DNA of 64,000 nucleotides, from contig NZ_PEND01000004.1 in assembly GCF_002844195.1 (NCBI RefSeq), positions 310,001-374,000 of the forward strand. The letters are read 5' to 3'. The number at the start of each line of letters is the position of its first letter. Within the stretch, counting starts at the first letter, position 1. Both the position numbers and the translations under genes were made by a program. The stretch is from Halegenticoccus soli (GTDB lineage Archaea > Halobacteriota > Halobacteria > Halobacteriales > Haloferacaceae). The notes beneath the pieces are model-generated. The model was not told where the DNA came from. It was given only the letters and a program-made list of their open reading frames with translations, and ran no database searches. Positions 39 through 35,142 of this stretch are shown here, piece by piece.

Positions 39-2071
39 CCGACCACCACCCAGGTGCCGAGCGCAACCGTCAGCAGCGCGACCGCGAACTTCACCCCGGA
101 GACGATGTCGGCGTCGCGGATGTACCCGGAGATGAACCCCGACAGGATCGCCTGCAGCGTCACCGCGTGGAAGAAAAGCACCGACAGGAGGTTGGTGTCG
201 ACGCCGCCGCCGAACTCCGACCCGCCGCCTCCGCCCCCGCCGGAGGACCCCGTCTGCTCCGTCAGCCCGGCCATCACGTCGAGGAACTGCGTCTTCAGGA
301 TGGCCATCACGGCGAGCAGCGTCAGGTAGGTCATGACGATGATGACGACCTGCATCCGCGTGCGCGACTTGCGCTCGCGGTCGATGTCGTCCTGGTTCTC
401 GCTGGCCTGCGCCGCCGTCGTCAGCACGTCGGTGATCTGGCTCGACGCCTCCTGCGCCTCGGTGATGAGCTTCACCGTCCGGGCGAGCCGCGGGACGTGG
501 TACTCGTTGTTGAACTCCACCAGCGCCTCCTTGAGGCCCATCCCGTAGTTCACCTTGCCGTAGATGACCTCGAACTCGTCTGCGAGCTTCCCCGAGGAGG
601 TGTCGGCGACCGTCCGAATCGACTCCAGGAGCGTGAGCCCGGTGTCGTTCGCGCTGGATAGCTTCCGGAGGTTTTCCGAGAGCTTCCCCACCACGGCCCC
701 CCTGGAGCGGACGTTCCAGGTGTGGAACGCGGCGAGGGGCACGCCGACGACGTACGCCGGGACGTACACCCAGAGGAACGTCCCCCAGACCGGCTGCGCG
801 ACCATCCCGGCCCACGAGAGCGGTGCCGATCCGCTCGCCGCCGCGACGGCGAGGAGGGCGACGGCCGCCGGAACCGACAGCGCGAGCGTGTACAGCGGGT
901 TGTCGCGGAAGAAGACGTGCGGGCGACGGAGGAGCGCCGCGGTCTCGTGGGTCCCCTCCCGGCTCCTGATCCGGTCGAAGACGCGGAACTCGCCGACGAA
1001 GCGCTCGACGAACCCGAGGTGAAACAGCCCCTCCTTTCGCGCCTCGTCGAGTCGGTCGCTCGAACCGGACGGCGAGAGGAACCCGTCGCCGGGCTCGTCC
1101 TGTTTGACGGTCGAGACGAGCACGAGGAAGCCGACGCCCGTGAGCGGGATCAGCCCGTACACCGTCGCGTACAGGAGCAGTTCGTCGGCGTTGCCGAGCA
1201 TGCTCATGATGACGAGGATGATGATGAGAAGCAGCGGGAACAGAGAGAGCGTCATGTACATCTCGCCGAACAGCTCCAGCGTCTCCAGGGTCAGCTCCTG
1301 CTGCTGTTTCGACGTCCGCATGTGCTTTTCCTTCTTGTCGTCGAGAAAGCGCTCCACGTCCCCGCCGGAGTTGACGATCGAGAGCATGTCCGTCAGGAAC
1401 TGCGAGAGCTCGTCGCTGGGCGTCTCCATCGCCTGGTTCCGGATGGCCGTCCGGTAGTCCACCCCGAAGTACTCCGTCTCCTGGACGATGCTCTGAAACT
1501 CCTTTGCCACCTCGCCGTAGGTGTCCTCCGCCTTCGCCATCGCCTCCAGGATCTCGAGCTGGTTCAGCCCGCCGACCGAGAGCGCGTACATGAACGACAC
1601 CGCGTCGGACAGGAGCATGTCGATCTCCCGCTTGCGCGAGGACGCCCGCGAGTAGGGGACGGCGACGACCGCCCCGAACCCGGCGGCGAACCCGACCGTC
1701 CCGAACACGACGCCCGTCAGCCCGATCGCCGCCGGCACCTTCGCCGCCAGGACGAGATCGAGCAGCGCCTCGTTCGGGATGCGCGCGCCCAGGGACAGCG
1801 ACTCGGCCGAGACGAGGCCGAGCGCGAACAGCCCGTACCCGAGGAGCGTCCCGAGCAGCCACAGCGCGACCCCGACGAGCGCGCCGACGGCCAGCGCGCG
1901 AGAGAGGTACAGTTCGACGGTGACGGGCATCCGCGCCTGCGCGAGCTTCTCCTCCACGTCGGCGACGAAGTCGCCGTCCGGATCGAAGAGCCGCCGAAAG
2001 AGGGGGTAGAAGGCGTCTGCGAACCCGCCGTCGCCGCCGCGGATCCCGCCCGTTCCGGCGTCCAGGCTCAT
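35..2071 (-). CDS. TadC/ArlJ-like platform membrane protein of a type IV pilus-like system
   Basis: A 678-residue polytopic membrane protein with two T2SS-F/TadC-type halves. Each half pairs helical cytoplasmic segments (for example MLLSDAVSFMYALSVGG near residue 150) with hydrophobic helices (around residues 55-90, 110-140, 275-320, 400-450 and 575-675). Such proteins anchor the assembly ATPase in the membrane and drive pilin polymerisation. The gene starts directly after the stop of the ATPase gene, so the two form one operon. A run of glycines (about residues 607-616) makes a flexible loop before the last helices. The exact filament built cannot be told because no pilin is visible. Confidence 0.9.
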   Translation of the reverse strand: MSLDAGTGGIRGGDGGFADAFYPLFRRLFDPDGDFVADVEEKLAQARMPVTVELYLSRALAVGALVGVALWLLGTLLGYGLFALGLVSAESLSLGARIPNEALLDLVLAAKVPAAIGLTGVVFGTVGFAAGFGAVVAVPYSRASSRKREIDMLLSDAVSFMYALSVGGLNQLEILEAMAKAEDTYGEVAKEFQSIVQETEYFGVDYRTAIRNQAMETPSDELSQFLTDMLSIVNSGGDVERFLDDKKEKHMRTSKQQQELTLETLELFGEMYMTLSLFPLLLIIILVIMSMLGNADELLLYATVYGLIPLTGVGFLVLVSTVKQDEPGDGFLSPSGSSDRLDEARKEGLFHLGFVERFVGEFRVFDRIRSREGTHETAALLRRPHVFFRDNPLYTLALSVPAAVALLAVAAASGSAPLSWAGMVAQPVWGTFLWVYVPAYVVGVPLAAFHTWNVRSRGAVVGKLSENLRKLSSANDTGLTLLESIRTVADTSSGKLADEFEVIYGKVNYGMGLKEALVEFNNEYHVPRLARTVKLITEAQEASSQITDVLTTAAQASENQDDIDRERKSRTRMQVVIIVMTYLTLLAVMAILKTQFLDVMAGLTEQTGSSGGGGGGGSEFGGGVDTNLLSVLFFHAVTLQAILSGFISGYIRDADIVSGVKFAVALLTVALGTWVVVG

Positions 2072-5000
2072 CTACGCCTCCCCGTCGGGATCTTCGAACT
2101 GGCCGAAGCCCCACTCGTCGATGCCGGCCGTCGGGTCGTCCCCCTCCCGGCTCCGATCCCCGTCTCCCTTCTCGCTCCGTTCTCCGTTTTTCCCCTCGCC
2201 GCCTTCCCCGTTCCGCTCTCCGTCCTTCTCCCCGCGTCGCTCTTCGCCGCTCTCCCCGGTCCGCTCCCCGTCGATCTCCCCGGTCCGCTCTCCGTCGTCC
2301 TCCCCGGTCCGCTCTCCGTCGTCCTCCCCGATCCCGTGCACGTCCGCTTCCTTCGACCACCTCGCCTGGGTCTCTCGCCCGGGTGCTCGATCCGCCGCTT
2401 CGTCACCCGCGTCCAGGGCCGGCGGCGCGTCGTCGCCGAGCGCGCTCGGTTCGTCCCCGCCCCCGGCTTCGGGGGGCGAGAACGACCCCGACCCCGACTC
2501 GTCGCCCGGCGCCGGCGCGTCGTTCGACCCGATCGTCACGTCGTCCGCCTCGCGCATGGCGCCCAGGGCGGTCGCGACGCTCCCCGCGCTGTCGCCCCGG
2601 TACCGTTCGAACAGCTCCTCCTCCGCCCGTTCGAGGATGGTCTCGGCCTCGGCCAACCGCTCCGCGTCGGGGTCGGGTCGGGGGACCATCTCCTCCTTCT
2701 CCGGGTCGATGTCGATGAGCACCGACTCCATCTCGCGGAGGTCCTCCAGGCTCCGCTCCAGCCGGTCGTTCGCCATGAGCGTCAGGATCGTCTCGGGGTC
2801 GTTGATGAACGCCTGGAAGGTCGCGGCGACCTGCGTGTACGTGTTCAGCCCGTTTCTGATCAGGTACGCGAGCACGACCCGCCGCTTGAAGAGCTCCTCG
2901 TCGAGCGTCTCCCGCGACCAGCCGCGGTCGAACATGATCTCCGAGAGCGTGTTGGAATCGCCCGTCTCCAGGAACTCGTCCGTCTCGGCCTGCCACTGGT
3001 AGACGTCCTGCACGTTGATCTCGTCGTTCTCGGCGTCGTAGTGGTTGATCTCCGTGAGCGACTTGTTCCGGCGGACCTTGGTCCCCTGCACCCGGGTCGA
3101 TGTCTGGATCGACACGAGGTCGAGCGCCGTGAACATCGTCTTCGAGACGTTGATCGGCTCCGTCGTGAAGCGCTTCAGCACCTCGCCGACGCTGTCGGCG
3201 TGGAACGTCGTGTAGGTCGTGTGCCCGGTGGACATGACCTGAAACAGGGTGCGGCCCTCCTCGCCGCGGATCTCGCCCATCACGATGTAGTCGGGCCGCT
3301 GCCGGAGCGCCGCCTCCAGCAGGTCGAACTCGTCCACGTCGCCCCTGTCGTCGTCAGAGAAGGACGGCCGCGTGACCGATGCGATCCAGTTTCGCTGCGG
3401 GAGTTCGACCTCGCGGGTGTCCTCGATGGAGACGATCTTGGTGTTCGAGGGGATGAAGAGCGAGACGGCGTTCAGGCTCATCGTCTTCCCGGACGCCGTG
3501 CCCCCGGCGAAGATGAGCGACTTGTTGTTCTCGATGCAGAGCCAGAGGAATCCCATCTCGTCCAGCGAGAACGTCCGCCAGTTGATGAGGTCGATTGGGG
3601 TGAAGGGGACGTCCTTGAACTGCCGGATGGTGTAGTTCGTCCCGTGGTCCGACACCTCCCGACCGAGCGTGAGCTGCGCGCGGGATCCGTCCGGCAGCGT
3701 CGCGTCGACCTGCGGCTTGCGCTTGCTGATCCCTTTGTCCGAGCGCTGGGCGAGTTTGACGACGAAGTCGTCGAGCTCCGACTCGCCGTGGTACACGTTC
3801 GAGATGATCTGCTCGTAGTCGCCGTGGTAGACGAACACGGGGGAGTTGTACCCGTCGCAGGAGACGTCCTCGACGTTGATGTCGTGTTTGATCCCGTCGA
3901 TGCGCTCGTAGCCGATGAAGTCGCGCGTGAGGTAGTACAGGAGCTTCTCGACCTGATACTCGCTCAGGTCGGCGGCGTCGTCGGCCAGCACGGCGGGCTC
4001 CGGTCGGGCCGCGATGCCGTCGAGATCCCCGGATTCCAGGCGATCCTCCTCCGTGCCGAAAAGCCGGAGCAGGCGGCCGCCGATCCCGCCGACCCAACCG
4101 TCGCCGCCGACTCCGCCGCCCCCGCCGTCGACGCCGAGTCGTTCGCCGAGCGCCTTCGCGAACCCGTCCTCCGTTTCGTGGCTGTAGAGGTCGTACCGGT
4201 CGAGGAGGCGGTACGTCTCCCGCTCTATGACCTCGCGCCGGCCCTCGTCGCCGGAGACGACGACCTCGTCGTCGGAGTACTTGATCGAGGTGCGGAGCTT
4301 TCCGGTCAGATACTCCGCCAGGTTCTCCTCGATCCGGTTGAGGTGCGGTTCGACGAGGTAGTACTTCCGCTCGTTTTCCCTCTCGGAGTGAAAGATGACG
4401 ACGAACGCGTAGGGTTTGTTCACCCAGTAGCGCTCTACCTCCCGGAAGTGCGCCTTCTTCGCGAGCGGAACCGCCTTTTCCAGGTCGTAGCGGTTCGCCA
4501 CGGTCGTCGTCCCACGCTCCGTCGAGAAGAACGCGTCCTCGTCGAGATCCTCGTTGACGTTCACCGACCGCTCTTCCACGAGGTCGGCCGTCTCCTTCGC
4601 GCGCCGTCCGAGGTGCGAGATGACGCCCTCGATTTCGTCCGGATCGAACCCGAGCGCCTCCGCGGGGTCGAACGGTCGCTTCTCCCCGTCCCCGTCTCTC
4701 GGCGGGTCGCCGTTCTCGTCGTAGTAGTACTCCCGTTTGTAGTGCTCCCACAGCCACGCGTCTTTGACCACGGGCGTGGTCTCCGGATCGCAGAACGCCT
4801 CGAAGCGGTCGTGCAGTCGGCCGGCCTCGGCGCCCGCGTCGCCGATCCGGTCTTCCAGTTCGTCCGGCGGAAAGCCCAGATGCTCGGCCGGATCGACGCC
4901 GGCGCGCTCCCAGTCCGCCGCGCCCGGCGTCCAGGACGCATCGTCCTCCGCCCAGCGGTCGCTTCCCGGCGCTCGCGGCCGGCCGTCGTACAGCGCGTCC

Positions 5001-5137
5001 GCCGACCCGGGCGGGCCGTACTCGTCCAGGTAGTCCGCCCAGGTGTACGCTCCGACGACCGCCCGTCGCCCCTCCTCGGACTCCCCTGAGCCCGTGCCTC
5101 CCTCCAGCTGCCCGGCGTCGGCGTCGTCAACAGCCAT
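2072..5137 (-). CDS. type II/IV secretion system (VirB11/PilT-like) assembly ATPase with acidic tail
   Basis: A 1021-residue secretion ATPase. It has a poorly conserved acidic N-terminal half, the archaeal N-terminal domain (SCDGYNSPVFVYH, LPDGSRAQLTLG), then Walker A GGTASGKTMSLN near residue 545, the Asp box IEDTREVELP, Walker B YIVMGEIRG and the His box TGHTTYTTFHADS. The protein would hydrolyse ATP in a cytoplasmic hexamer to power pilus assembly with the platform protein encoded next. The C-terminal 180 or so residues are low complexity and carry octapeptide repeats. The family is usually shorter, so the tail is an add-on of unknown role. Translation starts at ATG 5137, about 20 bases after a T-rich TATA element. 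Confidence 0.93.
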   Translation of the reverse strand: MAVDDADAGQLEGGTGSGESEEGRRAVVGAYTWADYLDEYGPPGSADALYDGRPRAPGSDRWAEDDASWTPGAADWERAGVDPAEHLGFPPDELEDRIGDAGAEAGRLHDRFEAFCDPETTPVVKDAWLWEHYKREYYYDENGDPPRDGDGEKRPFDPAEALGFDPDEIEGVISHLGRRAKETADLVEERSVNVNEDLDEDAFFSTERGTTTVANRYDLEKAVPLAKKAHFREVERYWVNKPYAFVVIFHSERENERKYYLVEPHLNRIEENLAEYLTGKLRTSIKYSDDEVVVSGDEGRREVIERETYRLLDRYDLYSHETEDGFAKALGERLGVDGGGGGVGGDGWVGGIGGRLLRLFGTEEDRLESGDLDGIAARPEPAVLADDAADLSEYQVEKLLYYLTRDFIGYERIDGIKHDINVEDVSCDGYNSPVFVYHGDYEQIISNVYHGESELDDFVVKLAQRSDKGISKRKPQVDATLPDGSRAQLTLGREVSDHGTNYTIRQFKDVPFTPIDLINWRTFSLDEMGFLWLCIENNKSLIFAGGTASGKTMSLNAVSLFIPSNTKIVSIEDTREVELPQRNWIASVTRPSFSDDDRGDVDEFDLLEAALRQRPDYIVMGEIRGEEGRTLFQVMSTGHTTYTTFHADSVGEVLKRFTTEPINVSKTMFTALDLVSIQTSTRVQGTKVRRNKSLTEINHYDAENDEINVQDVYQWQAETDEFLETGDSNTLSEIMFDRGWSRETLDEELFKRRVVLAYLIRNGLNTYTQVAATFQAFINDPETILTLMANDRLERSLEDLREMESVLIDIDPEKEEMVPRPDPDAERLAEAETILERAEEELFERYRGDSAGSVATALGAMREADDVTIGSNDAPAPGDESGSGSFSPPEAGGGDEPSALGDDAPPALDAGDEAADRAPGRETQARWSKEADVHGIGEDDGERTGEDDGERTGEIDGERTGESGEERRGEKDGERNGEGGEGKNGERSEKGDGDRSREGDDPTAGIDEWGFGQFEDPDGEA
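2252..2323 (-). repeat. three 24-bp tandem repeats in the ATPase C-terminal tail
   Basis: Three consecutive 24-bp units (starting 2252, 2276 and 2300) differ at only a few bases. They encode repeats of the octapeptide DDGERTGE in the acidic tail of the ATPase. Degenerate copies (IDGERTGE, SGEERRGE, KDGERNGE) continue the pattern. The multiple-of-three unit preserves frame, so copy number can vary without breaking the gene. Confidence 0.85.
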
Positions 5138-31240: not shown

Positions 31241-33355
31241 TCACAGGAGGGAAAACGCGACCGACGCGGCGACGAGGAGGACCGCCGCGTGCTTCGCGCC
31301 GTCCGCGACGCTCCCCTCGCCGAGCTGGCCCGCGATGAGCCCCGAGCAGACCGCCTGAACGAGGCAGGCGTGGTGGAGCGCGAGCGCGTACGCCCCGGCG
31401 TCCGCACCGTCGGCGCCCCCGATCAGTGGCGAGCCGACCGCCGAGGGCGCTTCTTCGACGGCGGACGCCTGCGCCGCCTCGATCGCGGGGACGAACGAGA
31501 CCGTGAGCGCCGCGACGATGCCGAGAAAGACGAGGAACGCGAGGTAGATAACGAGCAGGTAGGTGACCATCTCCCGGCGCCGGGCGTCGGCGAGCCGGCG
31601 GTCCGCCCGCGCCTCGTCCGCCGCGATGCGGAGCACCGGGGCCACGTCGCCGCTCACGCGCGTCGCGTGGACGACGAGCGTCAGCGCCCGCCGCACCGCC
31701 CGCGAGCCGATCCGCCGATCCATCCGACGCAGCGCCGTCCCGACCTCCGCGCCCCAGGCGACGTCGCGCCGCGCGCGCCGGAGCTCCGGGGTCAGCGCGC
31801 CGAGGTCGCTCCGCGCGACCCGCTCCACGCTCGCGACGACCGTGAGGCCCGCCTCGTTGACGCTGGCGAGCCGGTCCAGAAAATCGGGGATCGCCGCCTC
31901 GACGGCCCGGAGCCGGCGCTTTTCGAGCTCGTAGACGACCGCGAACGCGCCGAGGGCGACCGCTCCCGCTGCCGCCGCCGGCCCGTCGATCGCCGCGAGC
32001 GCGTCGACCGGCTCCGTCGCCCCGACGAGATCCGCCCGCAGGGCGACCCAGAGCGCGCCGAGCGGGACCGTCGCGGCGAACGTCGCCGCGGGGCGACGGC
32101 GGATCGACCCGAGGGGATCCGACGCCCACCGCCGGACCGTTCGGGTGCGATCGTACGCGGCCAGGCGTTTTCGGTCCGCCCGGCGTCCCGGGTCCGCCCG
32201 GCGGTCGTCGAGCGCGACGCCGCCGTCGGTCGCGCTCGCCACGGTTCGTCCCGCCCGGTTCGAGTCGGTTGCGGAGGCCCCCTCCGCGTTCCCGGGACCG
32301 CGGAGCGATCCGGTCACGCTGTCGACGTAGACGAGAAAGCCCGCGCTGGCGAGCGGCAGGCCGACGTAGGCGACGAACCGGACGAGGTCGAGCGTGCTCG
32401 ACAGCACGAGGCCGACGATCACGAGGACGGTGACGAGGAACAGCGGCCCGGCGACGAGGAGGGTCACGTACATCTCGGCGAACGCCGCGAGGAGTTCGAG
32501 ATACTGCTCCTGCTGGGATTCGGCCTCCTCTCGGTACTGGTCGTACTGCGAGCGGAGGAAGGCGGAAACGCTCCGGCCGCTTTCGAGGACGCTCGCCAGG
32601 TTCTCGGCGAACTCCTCGAGGTCGTCGCTCGGCGTCCGGCGGGCCGTCCGGCGGAGTGCAGTCAGCACGTCCGCGCCGAGGAGGTCCGTCTCACGGACCC
32701 CGACGGCGAACTCCTCGGCGGCCTCGCCGTAGGCGCGCCGGTTCGCCGCCAGCGTGTCGAGGACCGCCGACAGCGGCACGCCGCTGCGAGACAGCGCGTA
32801 GACGAACGCGACCGTGCGCGGCAGCGTCGACTCGATCCGCCCGCGCCGGGCGGCGGCGCGCTGTCGGAGGGACGCCCAGTGCGCGCGGTAGGCGCCGAGC
32901 GCGAGCGCGACGGCGAGCGCCGCCCCGCCGCACGAGAGCAGGACGAACCGCGCCGCGCTCTCGCCGACGACGTCGGAGACGACGCTCCAGACCGCGGCCA
33001 GGGGCGCGACGAGACCCCGAACCGGCTCTCCCGCCGCTGACGCGGCGTCCGGCCCGGCGACGACCAGCCACGCGGCGAGAGACGCGCCGAGCGCGCCGCC
33101 CGCGAGGCCGAACGCCGCGCCGAAGAGGAGGGCGCGGGCGGCAAAGCGCCGGTACGTCGACGGGACGGCGGCTGCGCGGAGCCGTCGCCGCCCGCGCTCG
33201 ACCCGCGTCTCGTCGGCGGCGACGTGCTCGCCGAAGAGCCAGAGGGCGAGGCGCGTCGTCGCGAGGCGGACCCGCGGGTCGCGGCGATCGGCGAGAACCA
33301 GCAGGCAGAGGGCGACCGCGGTCGCGATCGGGGCGAAGGCGACGGGCGAGAGCAT
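31241..33355 (-). CDS. TadC/ArlJ-like platform protein of the second pilus system
   Basis: A 704-residue membrane protein with two T2SS-F halves. Helices are seen at residues 1-22, around 60-95, 120-160, 275-315, 410-460 and 560-600, and a cluster at the end (VTYLLVIYLAFLVFLGIVAA and others). Cytoplasmic segments such as VAFVYALSRSGVPLSAVLDT match the first system's platform protein. It would work with the ATPase encoded immediately upstream; the ATG shares one base with the end of that reading frame (TGATG). A pseudogenised ATPase would leave this protein without its motor. Confidence 0.9.
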   Translation of the reverse strand: MLSPVAFAPIATAVALCLLVLADRRDPRVRLATTRLALWLFGEHVAADETRVERGRRRLRAAAVPSTYRRFAARALLFGAAFGLAGGALGASLAAWLVVAGPDAASAAGEPVRGLVAPLAAVWSVVSDVVGESAARFVLLSCGGAALAVALALGAYRAHWASLRQRAAARRGRIESTLPRTVAFVYALSRSGVPLSAVLDTLAANRRAYGEAAEEFAVGVRETDLLGADVLTALRRTARRTPSDDLEEFAENLASVLESGRSVSAFLRSQYDQYREEAESQQEQYLELLAAFAEMYVTLLVAGPLFLVTVLVIVGLVLSSTLDLVRFVAYVGLPLASAGFLVYVDSVTGSLRGPGNAEGASATDSNRAGRTVASATDGGVALDDRRADPGRRADRKRLAAYDRTRTVRRWASDPLGSIRRRPAATFAATVPLGALWVALRADLVGATEPVDALAAIDGPAAAAGAVALGAFAVVYELEKRRLRAVEAAIPDFLDRLASVNEAGLTVVASVERVARSDLGALTPELRRARRDVAWGAEVGTALRRMDRRIGSRAVRRALTLVVHATRVSGDVAPVLRIAADEARADRRLADARRREMVTYLLVIYLAFLVFLGIVAALTVSFVPAIEAAQASAVEEAPSAVGSPLIGGADGADAGAYALALHHACLVQAVCSGLIAGQLGEGSVADGAKHAAVLLVAASVAFSLL

Positions 33356-33612
33356 CAGTCGCCCTCGCCGCGACTGTCGTCTCCGTCCCGCACCGCGTCT
33401 CCGTCGCGCTCGTTGCGCTCTTCGGACTCGTCGGGTTCGTCGGATTCGTCGGGCTCGACCTCGCGTTCGAGCCGCTCCGTCGCGCGCTCCGGATCCGCGT
33501 AGTACGCGTTGACGCGCGCCGTGAAGCGGCGGTAATCGTCGACGCCGCGCTCGCACAGGAGCTCGAGGAACCGCTCGCGGGCCCGGAGTTCGCCGAGGAG
33601 CTCCGACCGGTT
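33355..33612 (-). pseudogene. C-terminal part of the pilus ATPase cut off by an in-frame TGA
   Basis: Directly after the TGA at 33613-33615 the same frame stays open for 85 codons (NRSELLGELRARERFLELLC, then RRFTARVNAYYADPE and an acidic tail). It ends at the TGA that overlaps the platform gene start. It aligns without gaps to the end of the first pilus ATPase. The piece has no start codon of its own, so it is translated only by readthrough or not at all. Confidence 0.8.
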
Positions 33613-35142
33613 TCACCCGCGCTCGGCCGCGATCTCGGAGAGGAGGTCGCTGTCGCTCCTGGCGAACGAGTCCGTCTCGGGGTCCCACGAGAACGACGAC
33701 GTGTAGTCGAGTTCGCCGGTCCGCGCGTCGACGCCGCGGATCTCGCCCACGACCTTCGACCGCCTGACGCGTTCGCCGCCGACGCGGGCGAGCGTCTGGA
33801 CGGACAGCAGATCGAGCGACTGCACCATCGCCCGCGGGACGCCGATCGGCTCGTTTTCGAGCCGGTTGACGACGGTCTCGACGCTGTCGGCGTGCATCGT
33901 CGAGAACGTCGTGTGGCCCGTGTTCATCGCCTGAAACAGCGTGACCGCCTCCCGGCCGCGGACTTCCCCCACGATGATGTACTCGGGGCGGTGCCGGAGC
34001 GCCGACCGCAGGAGGGCGTACATGTCTATCTCCTCGCCGTCGTGGAGGCGCTCGCGCGTGACGTTGGCGAGCCAGTTGTCGTGGTGTAGCGCGAGTTCGC
34101 GGGTGTCCTCGATGGTGAGCACCTTCGCCCGCGGCGGGATGAACGTCGACACCGCGTTCATCGACGTGGTCTTGCCGGAGGCGGTCCCGCCGGCGAAGAT
34201 GAGCGACTTGTTGTGCTCGATGCAGAGCCACAGGTACGCCATCGTCGCGGCGTCGAACGTGCCGTACTCGATCAGGTCGACCGGCGTGAAGGGCTCCTCC
34301 GCGTACTGGCGGATGGTGAACGCGGAGCCGCGGGGGGTCACCTCCTCGCCGAGGACGAGCTCCGCGCGCGACCCGTCAGGGAGCGTCGTCTCGACGATCG
34401 GGTCGCCGACGCTGATGTGTCGCCCCGACCGCTGGGCGAGGCGGACGACGTAGCTGTCCAGTTCCTCCCGGTCGAACGTCACGTCGGTTTCGACGTCGGT
34501 GTACTCCGCGTGGTAGACGAAGAGCGGGAGGTCGTACCCGTCGCAGGAGACGTCCTCGACGCGAGGGTCGCACAGGAGCAGGTCGACCTTCCCGTAGCCG
34601 CGGAAGTCGCGGGCGAGGTAGTACAGCAGGGCGTGAAACGTCTCCGCGCCGACGCGGACGCCGTACTCTTCGAGCAGGGCCGCGAGTTCCTCGGCGAGCG
34701 CTCCGATCGCCGCCGACTCCGTCGGACCCCTCCGGTCGACGTCGGTCCCGTCGTCGCGGTACAGAAGCGAGTCGCGGACGTCGACTTTCACCCGCGCCAG
34801 CAGGTCGGCCTCGAACGGGCCGACGTCGGGTTCGACGGCGTGGTAGGCGTGTTCGCTCGCCTCCGGGTCGTAGGTGACGACGACGAAGGCGTACGGCGCG
34901 TTCACCCAGTACCGATCGACCTCCTCGTGGCCGTCGGGGACCCGAAACGTCGACAGCGGTCGGTCCTCGCCCGGGCGATACGGCCGGGCGTCGACGGTCG
35001 ATCCCCGAAGCGCCCCGGCGATAGACTCCCGAAGCGCCTCGACGGTTCGAACGACCCTGCCCCTCGCGTCCGCGAGTGCGCCCTCTCCACGTCCCGTCGG
35101 CTCCGAACGCGCTCCCCTGCGGCCGTGTGCGTCACCTGCCAT
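33613..35142 (-). CDS. secretion ATPase of the second pilus system, interrupted at a Trp codon
   Basis: A 509-residue product as read. It has the archaeal N-terminal domain (VDRYWVNAPYAFVVVTYDPE and VEDVSCDGYDLPLFVYHAEY), Walker A GGTASGKTTSMN near residue 312, Asp box IEDTRELALH, Walker B YIIVGEVRG and His box TGHTTFSTMHADS. All ATPase motifs are present. The reading frame is cut by TGA where the paralogue at 2072-5137 has Trp (DRGWSRETL against ERG-stop-NRSEL), losing the last 85 residues. With the tail the protein would be 595 residues. It may be a recent pseudogene, a sequencing error or a readthrough gene. Confidence 0.85.
   Translation of the reverse strand: MAGDAHGRRGARSEPTGRGEGALADARGRVVRTVEALRESIAGALRGSTVDARPYRPGEDRPLSTFRVPDGHEEVDRYWVNAPYAFVVVTYDPEASEHAYHAVEPDVGPFEADLLARVKVDVRDSLLYRDDGTDVDRRGPTESAAIGALAEELAALLEEYGVRVGAETFHALLYYLARDFRGYGKVDLLLCDPRVEDVSCDGYDLPLFVYHAEYTDVETDVTFDREELDSYVVRLAQRSGRHISVGDPIVETTLPDGSRAELVLGEEVTPRGSAFTIRQYAEEPFTPVDLIEYGTFDAATMAYLWLCIEHNKSLIFAGGTASGKTTSMNAVSTFIPPRAKVLTIEDTRELALHHDNWLANVTRERLHDGEEIDMYALLRSALRHRPEYIIVGEVRGREAVTLFQAMNTGHTTFSTMHADSVETVVNRLENEPIGVPRAMVQSLDLLSVQTLARVGGERVRRSKVVGEIRGVDARTGELDYTSSFSWDPETDSFARSDSDLLSEIAAERG

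Follow-up and report, generated by a model that had tools for sequence, protein, structure and literature searches.

An in-frame TGA at a conserved tryptophan codon of the pilus ATPase gene pilB3 in a haloarchaeon: probably a recent nonsense mutation

Is a pilus ATPase gene with a TGA in the middle of its reading frame a fresh pseudogene, an assembly error or a case of UGA read as tryptophan? The original prediction left these three options for a gene found in the window, which is the whole stretch of 64,000 nucleotides analysed here. The answer which we favour, and consider likely, is that a recent nonsense mutation has turned TGG into TGA in pilB3, whose product is the ATPase which assembles the main adhesion pili, those of PilA type. 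The base found at codon 510 is probably real. The features concerned are the following:

33355–35142, minus strand: full pilB3 frame, 596 codons, with orthologues in 161 of 170 family genomes
33616–35142, minus strand: predicted translated head, 509 residues, with PilB3_N at 35–106 and the T2SSE ATPase core at 245–454 (Pfam)
33613–33615, minus strand: in-frame TGA, codon 510, which is TGG (Trp) in 29 of 29 aligned relatives
33358–33612, minus strand: putative untranslated tail, 85 codons, with most of PilB3_C and an acidic end (PF23989, E 1.6e-12); no relaxed constraint
33353–33357, minus strand: TGATG overlap of the pilB3 natural stop (33357–33355) and the pilC3 ATG (33355–33353)
31241–33355, minus strand: pilC3, a 704-residue T2SSF membrane platform, frame intact
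2072–5137, minus strand: PilB4-like paralogue with extra N- and C-terminal regions, intact, with DRGWSRETL at the matching site

We will start with the frame itself. Its 596 codons include the internal TGA and the natural stop, also TGA. Only one stop is found inside it, and the rest of the frame is open: 85 sense codons lie between codon 510 and the expected end, as had been predicted. The translation around the site is ...AAERG*NRSELLGEL..., and the paralogue reads MFDRGWSRETLDEEL at the matching place (...FDRGWSRETL...). The TGA is therefore found at the tryptophan codon of the paralogue, and the gapless match described on both sides of it is accurate. When they are searched separately in Pfam, the head matches PilB3_N and T2SSE and the tail matches PilB3_C, so the similarity of the frame is not due to chance. 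No usable early start was found among the tail codons, where there is one CTG at codon 529 and one GTG at codon 584. The tail is thus no separate gene, and a separately started tail protein was rejected.

On sequence grounds the gene is the PilB3 orthologue of this genome, which belongs to the Haloferacaceae, a family of salt-loving archaea. The domains PilB3_N, T2SSE and PilB3_C are present in this order, PilB3_C only after the stop, and the T2SSF platform gene pilC3 is found directly downstream. In Haloferax volcanii PilB3-C3 is needed for the pili of six adhesion pilins, PilA1-6, and its deletion causes a severe adhesion defect (PMC6491452). The pair described here has the same domain set and an adjoining T2SSF-type pilC; it differs from that of H. 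volcanii in having an ATPase frame broken at codon 510. The gene had been presented as a second pilus ATPase; it can now be named as PilB3, the ATPase which in H. volcanii has been shown to build the main PilA adhesion pili. The first ATPase of the window looks like PilB4 by its sequence, a protein which has been described with extra N- and C-terminal regions (PMC4858521). Other PilB-like ATPases are also present in the genome. Antisense to the PilB4-like gene there is an open frame of 1455 codons (722–5089, plus strand), probably a by-product of the high GC content.

Comparison with relatives shows that the stop is exceptional. In a codon-by-codon alignment codon 510 is TGG in all 29 relatives, which represent 25 genera of the family; a single G-to-A transition of TGG gives TGA. 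We also looked at 80 further PilB3-like records, mostly from haloarchaea and methanogens: 78 have Trp at this position and two have Val, and the tail domain is present in all of them, out to methanogens. A genome of the same genus has an intact PilB3 with 79% identity. The gene is widespread in the family; among good-quality genomes it is found in 142 of 145. Three genomes which are at least 90% complete (G006, G127 and G134) lack any strong match to PilB3, which shows that loss of the whole gene also occurs in the family. No early stop was found in other PilB3 genes of the family among the matches listed, which omit a few of the weakest. The other internal stops listed were inspected; they come from alignments which extend beyond the natural C-terminus or reach into sequence before the start. 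As far as the sequences compared go, the premature stop appears unique to this genome. A programmed stop conserved in relatives was rejected, since none of them has a stop at codon 510. The original prediction had suggested looking in relatives for a conserved stop followed by a separately started tail: they have TGG, and the tail lacks an early start.

The age of the lesion can be judged from the tail. We considered the columns conserved in at least 90% of the other sequences, ignoring a mis-framed row (L069). Of such columns, 2 of 17 are changed in the tail and 17 of 279 in the head (Fisher p 0.30); ranked among 54 sequences, this tail does not stand out. The conserved columns of these 54 sequences give no sign of relaxed constraint beyond the stop, and on these counts an old pseudogene with relaxed selection on its tail was rejected. 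This absence of accumulated decay leaves three possibilities (a recent mutation, a wrong base, or a protein which continues to be produced): the undecayed tail fits a sequencing error or rescue by readthrough as well as a young lesion.

If the stop is real, translation would end at codon 510, and the protein would lack Trp510 and the last three C-terminal helices. In a model of the read-through protein, which has an overall pLDDT of only 61 and values of 83–96 over residues 491–560, the helices of the C-terminal domain are found at 499–508, 512–531, 537–549 and 551–560; according to this model, termination at 510 removes the last three of them. The solved structure of a GspE-type ATPase from A. 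fulgidus (2OAP) includes the tail region, which is therefore a structured part of the enzyme. The truncated product would still have its N domain and its Walker-type ATPase core. We infer that it is inactive, although partial function is possible because the whole core is retained.

The consequences may extend to the next gene. The predicted overlap with the platform gene is present and amounts to one shared base: in TGATG, the natural pilB3 stop runs into the ATG of pilC3. Of 53 sequences examined, 37 have an overlap of the type TGATG or ATGA/GTGA, and the present one is among them. In H. volcanii a premature stop in the upstream gene abolished downstream translation in 9 of 9 overlapping pairs (Huber et al., PMC6728339). 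With the same arrangement here, translation of pilC3 should be lost. Ribosomes would halt 258 nt short of the pilC3 start, and the coupled platform gene would remain largely untranslated too, so that by analogy pilC3 may be lost along with pilB3. The original prediction stated that a second pilus system silenced in this way would lack its complete motor. This agrees with a truncated ATPase, but the likely polar effect on pilC3 had been missed.

Could the base simply be wrong? In that case the strain would have TGG and a normal pilB3, which we consider unlikely, although with an appreciable chance. In favour of an error, the lesion is single, constraint in the tail is normal and every relative is intact; the assembly is also a draft, in 15 contigs, and its contamination is estimated at 4.75%. 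However, the contig does not look like a careless assembly. The window lies on contig C4 (550 kb), which we compared with contig C9 of the same-genus genome; of the 288 homologous ORF pairs obtained, about 243 have a coding-like pattern of substitutions. In this survey no other clear single-lesion nonsense mutation or frameshift was found in a recognised gene, among some 240 conserved coding-like genes. Point errors in ordinary genes must therefore be rare, and widespread assembly errors were rejected. With one exception, the remaining in-frame stops looked like antisense or upstream frames. The exception is a DUF7286 gene outside the window (G000:C4:46431-49708, L122:6431-9708, minus strand), the only other broken gene found on the contig. 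It has three lesions (a TGA in place of a Trp codon, a frameshift and a TAG); it is intact in the same-genus genome, and it is plainly a real pseudogene. Next to it lies a further T2SSE/T2SSF pair, with DUF7283 and DUF7284 as neighbours, which seems to belong to another pilus-like system. The T2SSE ATPase of this locus has a frameshift of its own in the same-genus genome, near residue 349 (L277 around 1097-1100, G001:C9:233000-235700), with 76–80% identity on both sides. It is thus nothing unusual for pilus-type genes to be broken in this genus, and loss of a pilus gene fits with a multiply broken gene at another pilus-type locus of the same genome. We found one Pilin_N hit here and three in the same-genus genome; this difference is suggestive only and was set aside as independent evidence of pilus loss.

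Readthrough of codon 510, by the near-cognate tRNA-Trp or by a dedicated tRNA, would provide some full-length PilB3. The tail is undecayed and insertion of Trp would restore the conserved residue, but we consider this very improbable. TGA is the commonest stop, ending 271 of the 413 predicted ORFs of the contig, so UGA is not reassigned, and no relative has TGA at codon 510. In haloarchaea tRNA-Trp, a near-cognate of UGA, contains an intron. Leaving its anticodon aside, the 47 Rfam tRNA hits included no plausible decoder of UGA. There is one UCA call, tRNA-SeC(tca) at G000:C10:31552 (ARAGORN with intron search); it has no U33 and has a long extended anticodon hairpin, and the elements related to it in other genomes agree with it in the acceptor and T arms but not in the anticodon. 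It was rejected for these reasons, and from its sequence we consider it a tRNA-like element with a variable anticodon arm. In the family to which it belongs the acceptor and T arms hardly vary and the anticodon arm is hypervariable; matches to the family, some of them partial, occur in 23 of 60 relatives. In this genome its elements are found at L103:1553-1650, L104:338-427 and L112:134-218 (contigs C10, C9 and C12). They probably correspond to the elements of this kind reported for H. volcanii (Hoelzle et al. 2012, as cited in PMC7714728). According to a review, the only cases of stop-codon readthrough demonstrated in Archaea are those of Sec and Pyl (PMC8211752). Archaeal selenocysteine recoding, treated in the same review, shares an in-frame UGA with this locus; it differs in that the relatives here have Trp instead of Cys or Sec, and there is no Sec-type tRNA. 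A low level of near-cognate misreading may occur here, as it may at any UGA, but there is no sign of a programmed event. We give only a slim chance to a UGA tolerated through useful Trp readthrough, whose level would throttle PilB3 and, by coupling, PilC3. Finally, it is hardly credible that the 509-residue protein is a functional shortened ATPase with a dispensable tail. The T2SSE core lies entirely before the stop, but the tail domain is universal in the 80 further records, and both the model and 2OAP show it as part of the helical C-terminal domain; even with a working protein, coupling to pilC3 would be broken.

A fresh pseudogene is best supported among the three original options, given the unique stop, the TGG-to-TGA transition, the undecayed tail and another pilus-type gene which is truly broken; an assembly error is possible and not favoured, and reading of UGA as Trp is not supported. 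A nonsense mutation is an ordinary kind of event, and a recent one in pilB3 does not change general views of the genetic code or of pili. It resembles other recent nonsense pseudogenes of bacteria and archaea, with a single stop-making transition, intact relatives and an undecayed remainder. It differs from them by its position in a translationally coupled pair, so that two genes may go at once: one stop codon in a TGATG-coupled pair can take out two parts of a machine. If the mutation is real, this isolate should adhere poorly by means of pili, as a natural mutant of PilB3 and probably also of PilC3, and this would matter wherever its surface attachment is described or taken as typical of the species.
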